Assembly: GCA_025352265.1 (NCBI GenBank)
Contig: JANXTS010000010.1
Coordinates: 1-64,000, forward strand
Direction: 5' to 3'
DNA: 64,000 bases
From: Variovorax sp.
GTDB taxonomy: Bacteria; Pseudomonadota; Gammaproteobacteria; Burkholderiales; Burkholderiaceae_C
Below are positions 30,392 through 36,110 of the stretch, in pieces. The first letter of the stretch is position 1. Each line of letters opens with the position of its first letter. The position numbers and the translations under genes are program-made. A model generated the notes under the pieces. The model searched no databases, was not told where the DNA came from, and saw only the letters and a program-made list of their open reading frames with translations.

Positions 30392-30662
30392 TCAGGGCGA
30401 GATGCCCTGCTTTGGCTTCGCTTCGATGTCTTCGATCACGGGCTGCAAGTCGGCCACGCTGTCGATCTTGCTTCGCTGCATCGAGTGCCCGCCACTCAGC
30501 CATCGACAGACCGATCGCGTTGCCAATGACAGACAGCCCTACCGGCCAAGTGCCTGCGTTGACGCCCTCCTCGATGCCGACACCGGTGTCGTCGACCTTG
30601 ACCACGCTCAACGGCGGCCACACGCCGATGTCGGCGAAGTCGGCGACAACTGCAGCGTTCAT
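30392..30662 (-). pseudogene. phnX: Remnant of phosphonoacetaldehyde hydrolase (phnX), deleted and frameshifted
   Basis: In one minus-strand frame VVKVDDTGVGIEEGVNAGTW and IGNAIGLSMAEWRALDAA match the C-terminal half of PhnX, the HAD enzyme that splits phosphonoacetaldehyde. Immediately after, the last residues appear in another frame as IDSVADLQPVIEDIEA... ending at TGA 30392. About 25 residues are missing between the two. The N-terminal half with the catalytic nucleophile and lysine is gone. The 185-aa ORF in the track that covers this stretch is not a gene. Confidence 0.8.
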
Positions 30663-30691
30663 CTGTGCGAAGAAGCTTTTTCGAATGCCCC

Positions 30692-30751
30692 TCAGCCGAC
30701 GGCGCACACCATACCGAACACTCCAACCATCAGGGACTTTGCCAACTTCAT
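30692..30751 (-). pseudogene. Signal-peptide stub of a probable phosphonate binding protein
   Basis: ATG 30751 opens a 19-residue ORF, MKLAKSLMVGVFGMVCAVG, then TGA. It reads as the first part of an export signal with no mature protein. In intact phosphonate loci a 2-aminoethylphosphonate binding protein often starts a divergent operon that ends in phnX. The stub beside the phnX tail suggests that most of that operon was deleted. The identity as a phosphonate binding protein is inferred from context. Confidence 0.5.
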
Positions 30752-30917
30752 TTGAGAGGCTCGTGGATCGAAAAGAAAATCGAAACCGGACTCTGCCGGA
30801 CCGCAACGACATATTCGCGACACGAAGACAAAACAAAATCGTGGCCCACTCAGAGACTTCATCTGCTGTCATTTGTAACTTGTAGACAGTCGCGAATGAC
30901 GGTCATACCAATCGGCC
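30752..30917. promoter_or_regulatory. Former divergent control region of the phosphonate locus
   Basis: These 166 bp separate the binding-protein stub from the GntR-type gene. The stretch is AT-richer than its surroundings and should contain the two divergent promoters. No clear consensus boxes could be assigned by eye. Confidence 0.35.
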
Positions 30918-31526
30918 ATGGTCAAGAAGATATCCAGCAGTCCCACCATCGCACAGCTTCAGGGGAATGCTCTGGCGAATCTGGTTCAGGTCGAAATCGA
31001 ACGCATGATTTTGGACGGCGCGCTGCCATCAGGCGCCAAACTCACTGAAACCACATTGGCCGAGCAACTCGGCGTTTCCCGGCCCGGTGGGCAAAGCTTT
31101 TCGCATGCTCGAAGAAGCGGAACTGGTTCGCACCAGCTCTCCGACGCGATGGACCAGACCGTAAAAGGCGACAACGCCCACGACTCTCACCGCTTCGAAC
31201 TGAAGTTTCATGATCGATTGCTAGAGCTGGCGGGCAACTCCAAGCTGACCGCGACCTACCGCAAGCTGGTCAATGAACTTTCGCTGTTTCGACGCCAGAA
31301 TCTCACTCACGAATCGATGACGGTCTACTCGCGGGAATATCGGCTGATCGTGAAGACCGTCGCCGCACGCGAGCCCGAAGCGGCCGGCCAGGCCATGTAC
31401 CAGCATGTGATGAACAGTCGCGAGCGCACCCTGCGCAATGACAAGGCCAAGCGTGCGGAGACATTGAAGGCGGCCGCGCTTGCCGCCGTCAATACGGTCC
31501 AATCGAACGCTGGCGTGGAGGCCTGA
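30918..31526 (+). pseudogene. Phosphonate-type GntR regulator with frameshift and internal deletion
   Basis: The N-terminus (SPTIAQLQGNALANLVQVEI, then LPSGAKLTETTLAEQLGVSR) and the C-terminus (FHDRLLELAGNSKLTATYRK, LVNELSLFRRQN) are those of the GntR regulator associated with phosphonate utilisation (FCD type). After GVSR the frame shifts: the expected GPVGKAFRMLEEAELVRT lies in another frame near 31084-31140. About 50 residues between LVRT and the DAMDQTVKGDNAHD segment are missing, which restores the frame. The 202-aa ORF therefore survives but lacks the recognition helix end, the wing and the start of the effector domain. It is probably non-functional. Confidence 0.82.
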
Positions 31527-31528
31527 CC

Positions 31529-32077
31529 ATGGCGCTGACTCTTGAAGACATCGAGACCTTGTTTGACCGCCACGGCGGCGCGCAATATAGCGGTGAGCCC
31601 GTGACGCAACTGGCGCACGCGCTGCAGAGCGCCTACCTTGCGGAGCAAGCCGGTGCCGACGACGAGTTGGTCACGGCGGCCTTGTTGCACGACCTCGGCC
31701 ACTTGCTCAACGACCAGGGCGAGACGCCGAGCCTGCGCGGTGTCGACGACCTGCACCAATACTTCGCACTGCCCTTTCTTCGCGGTGTCTTCGGTGAGCG
31801 CGTGCTGTGCGCGATCAAGTGGCATGTCGATGCCAAGCGTTACTTGTGCGCGACGCGACCCGCGTATTGGGGCAGCCTTTCGGACGACTCCAAGCGCAGC
31901 CTGGAGTTGCAGGGCGGCATCTTTTCGGCGGAGCAAGCTGCTCAGTTCATCGGGCAAGAGAACGCGGCCGAAGCGGTGCAGTTGCGACTCTGGGACGACC
32001 AGGCGAAATCTGCAGACATGGTCACGCCGCCGCTGGCGCATTACCTTGCACGCGCTCGTCGCTGCATGCCTCATTGA
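31529..32077 (+). CDS. PhnZ-like HD-domain oxygenase of phosphonate degradation
   Basis: This 182-aa protein belongs to the HDIG family found in phosphonate operons, whose characterised member PhnZ is a mixed-valent di-iron oxygenase cleaving 2-amino-1-hydroxyethylphosphonate. It keeps the iron ligands (H30, H54-D55 in LLHDLGH, H58, H76, H99, D157). It also keeps the Tyr20/Glu23 pair of QYSGEPVTQ that gates the iron site in PhnZ. It starts 2 nt after the broken GntR gene. No PhnY-type hydroxylase partner is in the window. It looks intact although its neighbours are decayed. Confidence 0.85.
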   Translation: MALTLEDIETLFDRHGGAQYSGEPVTQLAHALQSAYLAEQAGADDELVTAALLHDLGHLLNDQGETPSLRGVDDLHQYFALPFLRGVFGERVLCAIKWHVDAKRYLCATRPAYWGSLSDDSKRSLELQGGIFSAEQAAQFIGQENAAEAVQLRLWDDQAKSADMVTPPLAHYLARARRCMPH

Positions 32078-32112
32078 GCGCCATCTGCACCATGGTCGTA
32101 GAAGGCGGCGTG

Positions 32113-32145
32113 ATCGTGTTGCGCTTCGCTGAAGCGCAACACGAT
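32113..32145. other. Perfect 15-bp inverted repeat (hairpin)
   Basis: ATCGTGTTGCGCTTC, loop GCT, then GAAGCGCAACACGAT is an uninterrupted 15-bp stem. It lies between the convergent PhnZ-like and decarboxylase genes (36 bp after one stop, 15 bp before the other). No T tract follows on either strand, so it may end transcription in both directions weakly or protect mRNA 3' ends. Confidence 0.65.
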
Positions 32146-36020: not shown

Positions 36021-36110
36021 GGAGCGGTGGATGAGCGGTTTAAGTCGCACGCCTGGAAAGCGTGTGAGGGTTAATACCCTCCGCGGGTTCGAATCCCGCC
36101 TGCTCCGCCA
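36021..36110 (+). tRNA. tRNA-Ser (anticodon GGA)
   Basis: The 90-nt sequence folds as a class II tRNA: acceptor GGAGCGG/CTGCTCC-type pairing, a D arm, the anticodon arm CACGCCTGGAAAGCGTG with GGA, a long variable arm (AGGGTTAATACCCTC) and GGGTTCGAATCCC as T arm, with CCA encoded. It reads UCC and UCU serine codons. Its 3' end borders a prophage remnant, a usual insertion position. Confidence 0.97.

Follow-up and report, generated by a model that had tools for sequence, protein, structure and literature searches.

A recently collapsed PbfD-PhnX aminophosphonate cluster in Variovorax with an intact Phn-HD oxygenase as its survivor

The described enzymes closest to the one discussed here are PhnZ, the (R)-1-hydroxy-2-aminoethylphosphonate (R-HAEP) dioxygenase (PDB 4mlm/4n6w), and TmpB (PDB 6npa). 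PhnZ converts R-HAEP into glycine and phosphate, and phnZ homologues recur in hydrolytic phosphonate clusters; R-HAEP itself is poorly processed by PhnW-PhnX, and an inhibitory effect of racemic HAEP on the growth of E. coli has been reported (PMC8154272). PhnHD genes also accompany PbfD(HpnW)-PhnX clusters, as in Achromobacter (PMC11203657) and in the pbfD-phnX cluster of Rhodoferax koreense (PMC10590968). The PbfD group, to which family TIGR03364 corresponds, oxidises N-methyl-AEP, and in the case of PbfD1 and PbfD2 also AEP, to phosphonoacetaldehyde, which is then hydrolysed by PhnX (PMC10590968). The role of Phn-HD in PbfD-PhnX clusters has been described as not fully understood, and for the PhnHD of Achromobacter phosphonatase clusters a modelling study predicted activity on HAEP (PMC11203657). 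Here, we analyse a 64,000-nucleotide stretch of a Variovorax genome (the window), where all other genes of such a cluster have been deleted or broken and Phn-HD has been kept. This genome is a natural experiment on the role of Phn-HD, and the survivor makes a modest question, that of Phn-HD function, directly testable.

The host genome is a 4.53-Mb draft (98.9% complete, 108 contigs, with the window on contig C60), and the named taxa nearest to it are Variovorax and Xenophilus. In the closest relative found, G026 (4.7 Mb, one contig), the oxygenase is 91% identical to the window protein; the MAG Variovorax RYN_564 (L001) comes second with 90%. In both the window and G026, a DNA-ligase gene borders the locus on one side and a gene of the ornithine-decarboxylase type on the other, and the window flanks are collinear on both sides with the G026 locus (L073), so that the neighbours are ancestral and no new gene context is present. 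Nine intact genes fill this slot in G026. On the minus strand lie phnX (TIGR01422, 338 bits), a PbfD-type FAD oxidoreductase gene (TIGR03364, 429 bits), a HAD-IB phosphatase gene (L073 5047-5778), phnU2 (TIGR03262), phnT2 (TIGR03265) and phnS2 (TIGR03261, 474.6 bits), whose intact product of 345 aa starts with MKFAKSLIVGLLGLACAAG; on the plus strand lie phnR (TIGR03338), Phn-HD (TIGR03276) and a gene for a phn_DUF6 protein (TIGR03340, score under the cut-off). The order of phnX, PbfD, transporter, phnR and Phn-HD is conserved in several other relatives, in the same slot. The pathway of the relatives is PbfD-PhnX and not PhnW-PhnX. Their ancestral cluster resembles the described PbfD-PhnX clusters in having phnX, a TIGR03364 FAD oxidase, an AEP-type ABC transporter, a regulator and Phn-HD, although the regulator is of the GntR type in relatives of the window and of the LysR type in Achromobacter. 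In the window, by contrast, all of these but Phn-HD are deleted or broken.

The lesions were mapped base by base by aligning the window to L073. Only a C-terminal part is left of phnX, the phosphonoacetaldehyde hydrolase gene (30392..30680, minus strand); it is recognised by TIGR01422 at profile positions 162-230 (E 1.9e-16, 60 bits, cut-off 220) and by alignment to G026 phnX, in comparison to which imperfect 12-bp repeats bound an in-frame loss of ~207 bp, while a second internal loss, of net 56 bp, shifts the frame. The alignment places the junction of a ~6-kb deletion at 30675..30695 (window 30627-30673 aligns with L073 3572-3618, and window 30687 onward with L073 9673 onward). This deletion took the 5' part of phnX, the PbfD-type FAD oxidase, the HAD gene, phnU2, phnT2 and most of phnS2, of which a signal-peptide stub of 19 codons followed by a stop is left (30692..30751, minus strand); its translation, MKLAKSLMVGVFGMVCAVG, aligns with the start of the intact PhnS2 at the same place in G026. 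The phnR gene (GntR/FCD, phnR_burk) is a pseudogene at 30918..31526 (plus strand), identified by alignment to G026 and by a partial match to TIGR03338 (135 bits, cut-off 271.5). It has lost 2 bp near 31077 and 142 bp at ~31130, i.e., net 48 codons with the frame restored, and a 202-codon ORF is still open; however, the frameshift falls in its recognition helix and both wing and linker have been deleted, so that the DNA-binding core is destroyed and the FCD domain is left. Directly after the oxygenase stop codon begins an 844-bp deletion bounded by imperfect 14-bp repeats, which removed phn_DUF6 (TIGR03340) up to its last ~17 codons (ICTMVVEGGVIVLRFA). The scar is found at 32078..32136 (plus strand), as judged from the L073 alignment and the identity of the G026 gene, and window 32078-32091 can be aligned with both L073 11206-11219 and L073 12050-12063. 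Most of the deletions have short direct repeats at their ends.

The cluster collapsed through several separate deletions and frameshifts, by which uptake (phnSTU), deamination (PbfD), hydrolysis (phnX), regulation (phnR) and phn_DUF6 were lost and Phn-HD alone was left coding. The original prediction of a decaying locus, with a signal-peptide stub, a phnX tail carrying a deletion and a frameshift, and a phosphonate-type GntR regulator short of about 50 residues around an intact PhnZ-like di-iron oxygenase, was borne out in each of these items, and the stub and phnX matches hold in both profile and synteny tests. The collapse is larger than had been claimed, since the FAD oxidase, the HAD gene, an ABC permease and ATPase, most of phnS2 and phn_DUF6 are gone as well. 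The collapsed short arrangement occurs in 1 of 102 genomes of the genus, the host itself, and in none of the 101 others searched; the sister lineages carry full-length genes, which supports the reading as decay and rules out a short architecture common to relatives. We conclude that a PbfD-PhnX aminophosphonate cluster has recently collapsed at this locus, an ordinary decay of a known kind with an interesting survivor. It gives a picture of a phosphonate cluster collapsing by several separate deletions, with C-P lyase remaining as the general route. None of the tandem repeats and RNA families checked accounts for the region; a tRNA gene (Rfam RF00005) is located downstream of the phosphonate locus, at 36021-36107.

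Some variation is also seen among the relatives. The HAD-IB gene, which is histidinol-phosphatase-like and lies between PbfD and phnU2 in G026, is adjacent to the cluster in only one other examined locus (L014). Two loci, L074 (G024) and L075 (G023), are compact variants with PbfD, phnX, Phn-HD and phn_DUF6 and without the phnSTU transporter, and the L074 cluster has no phnR match. As in the window, phn_DUF6 is absent after Phn-HD in L004 (10541-10616) and L013. Since the other tested cluster genes are present there, this membrane protein seems to have been lost independently and may be dispensable.

The rest of the host genome was searched for what the locus has lost. A profile search of the genome found no second phnX, PbfD or PhnW above the family cut-offs, which rules out another copy of the pathway for these genes; with phnX broken, the genome lacks the hydrolytic AEP route, which requires an intact phnX along with PhnW or PbfD. 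The search for phnY that the original prediction had proposed alongside phnW found no PhnY* or TmpA partner alpha-hydroxylase in this genome. The one protein of the PhyH family that it encodes has its nearest counterparts among leucine and ectoine hydroxylases and not in PhnY*, so that a complete PhnY*/PhnZ pathway is ruled out, and the only GBBH_N match lies in a 166-codon frame, too short for TmpA. One other HD match exists, which is weak and short. The C-P lyase operon is retained (PhnC, D, E, F, G, K, L, M and PhnJ).

The survivor is an intact Phn-HD protein of 182 aa, a mixed-valent di-iron oxygenase of the PhnZ/TmpB type (31529..32077, plus strand). It matches TIGR03276 over essentially its full length (positions 2-178 of 179) with 239.3 bits, above the cut-off of 214.6, and groups with this family, far under the TmpB and PhnZ1 equivalog cut-offs. 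By sequence, PhnZ and TmpB belong to the same HD di-iron oxygenase family (E 3e-34 and 4e-36) and have the H...HD...H...H...D ligands and the Y20/E23 pair in common with it; the window oxygenase differs from them in that no partner enzyme was found in the genome. In an alignment of 71 sequences, the ligand set and the clade's extra invariant histidine are all present (H30, H54, D55, H58, H76, H99 and D156), and Y20, E23 and K103 are likewise conserved. The metal-ligand positions were transferred from PhnZ on the basis of the alignment and of the PhnZ structure. The protein keeps 42 of 42 near-invariant family residues (columns from 70 relatives), and its sole departure from the consensus of at least 80% is E144, which it has in common with the sister genome. 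Location in a phosphonate cluster, usual though not required for TIGR03276, was present ancestrally, and only remnants of that cluster are left now.

We assessed selection on the window branch with a branch codon model written for this analysis. The oxygenase has a branch omega (dN/dS) of 0.050 and neutrality is rejected (p=1e-11). However, the remnants also gave low values (phnR 0.092, phnX 0.153; background 0.067 to 0.079) which individually do not differ from the background (p=0.19 to 0.35). dN/dS alone was thus rejected as proof of sparing; low omega in broken genes says only that the collapse is recent and that there has been little time for the sequence to discriminate. For this reason we compared individual columns, using the sister genome as a control, in a test that was chosen after seeing the data and deals with small numbers. 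At columns invariant in the other taxa, the oxygenase changed at 0 of 96 and the pooled remnants at 9 of 127 (phnR 6/81, phnX 3/46; p=0.011), while residues never seen in relatives number 4 of 181 in the oxygenase and 29 of 253 in the phnR and phnX remnants (p=0.0002). The sister genome, where all genes are intact, shows no contrast between the oxygenase and its neighbours (p=1.0 and 0.37), and the contrast in the window persists when the sets of taxa are matched (p=0.0014 to 0.008). Selection therefore held the oxygenase at least longer than its decaying neighbours, and it carries fewer damaging changes than the remnants do. In the original prediction the oxygenase had been called spared or recruited to another use; the column constraint and the branch dN/dS speak for the former, and the latter is neither needed nor shown.

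The native control of the oxygenase is, judging from the sequence, broken. Between phnS2 and phnR, the relatives have a palindrome-like motif, ATTGTCT...AGACAATC, which we regard as the candidate PhnR operator and promoter for phnR_burk regulators. The alignment of 22 relatives places this divergent region, with the predicted operator and the -35/-10-like hexamers, at 30865..30911 (plus strand). The half-site GACAATC is identical in the 22 relatives; it is GACAGTC in the window, where the other arm is changed too (GCTGTCA...AGACAGTC). The palindrome overlaps a -35-like TAGACA (30883-30888), followed by a 17-bp spacer and a -10-like TACCAA (30906-30911), which has lost the final T of the relatives' TANNNT. 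The DNA-binding part of PhnR is gone as well, and a search near the oxygenase found no other strong promoter, so that expression of the oxygenase is uncertain; it may be constitutive, driven from elsewhere, or silent. In the window palindrome, one T-to-C and one A-to-G change occupy symmetrical positions in the two arms. The phnR remnant, in the frame restored by both of its lesions, can be read up to a stop located 2 bp before the oxygenase start, which could reflect preserved translational coupling or a one-in-three chance.

We consider it probable that, in this recently collapsed cluster, the oxygenase still works as a stand-alone R-HAEP-type enzyme. It would oxidatively cleave an alpha-hydroxyphosphonate, most likely R-HAEP, into phosphate and glycine, and R-HAEP might be taken up by PhnCDE, the transporter encoded in the C-P lyase operon that the genome retains. 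Such an enzyme would never have needed the products of PbfD or PhnX, as its substrate would be external, and so it could stay useful after the loss of the cluster. Moreover, R-HAEP is mishandled by the hydrolytic pathway and is a reported growth inhibitor on uptake, thus the oxygenase can outlive the cluster. If it is active, the lost pathway cannot be the source of its substrate, and R-HAEP or a comparable alpha-hydroxyphosphonate from outside is then indicated; the retention of every near-invariant family residue favours the ancestral chemistry. More tentatively, the enzyme may constitute a self-sufficient one-enzyme phosphonate route or a detoxifier, turning R-HAEP supplied by the C-P lyase transporter into glycine and phosphate, with Phn-HD being a functionally separate module of PbfD-PhnX clusters, able to live alone as in Caballeronia.

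A less likely explanation, though one to be taken seriously, is that the cluster as a whole no longer has any use and that the oxygenase, itself unused and bound to be lost, is just the one gene that has so far escaped damage. The recent collapse with still low omega in the remnants, the invariant bases missing from the native -10 and the predicted operator, and the disappearance of the co-transcribed regulator and of the downstream gene would all fit such a course. However, the remnants significantly exceed the oxygenase both in changes at invariant columns and in never-seen residues, with no such contrast in the sister genome, the catalytic residues are all intact, and free-standing copies exist elsewhere. 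We consider it very unlikely that the oxygenase has come under a new promoter and been co-opted for another substrate or function beyond phosphonate metabolism: the loss of cluster and regulator around a constrained oxygenase is compatible with it, but no residue is unusual for the family (E144 being common to the sister genome), accelerated evolution is not seen, and the neighbours are the ancestral flanks. Finally, the draft state of the assembly might suggest an assembly or sequencing artefact, but this can be dismissed as highly improbable given several independent lesions, with short repeats where the deletions end, the absence of the missing genes tested (phnX, PbfD) from the rest of a nearly complete genome, the collinearity of both flanks with G026 and a raised replacement load in the remnants that is not expected from assembly error.

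For the reading as a working stand-alone enzyme, it is relevant that free-standing Phn-HD genes are found in two Caballeronia species, thus such an arrangement exists. In C. calidae and C. pedi (L027, L029), as in the window, a Phn-HD-like gene stands alone in the sense that none of the neighbours tested was recognised as a phosphonate gene. The Caballeronia proteins are 62-64% identical to the window protein and, unlike in the window, no remnant cluster was seen alongside. Their Phn-HD genes, around 10001-10550 of L027 and L029, lie in similar contexts, with glyoxalase-family and DnaJ-domain genes nearby.
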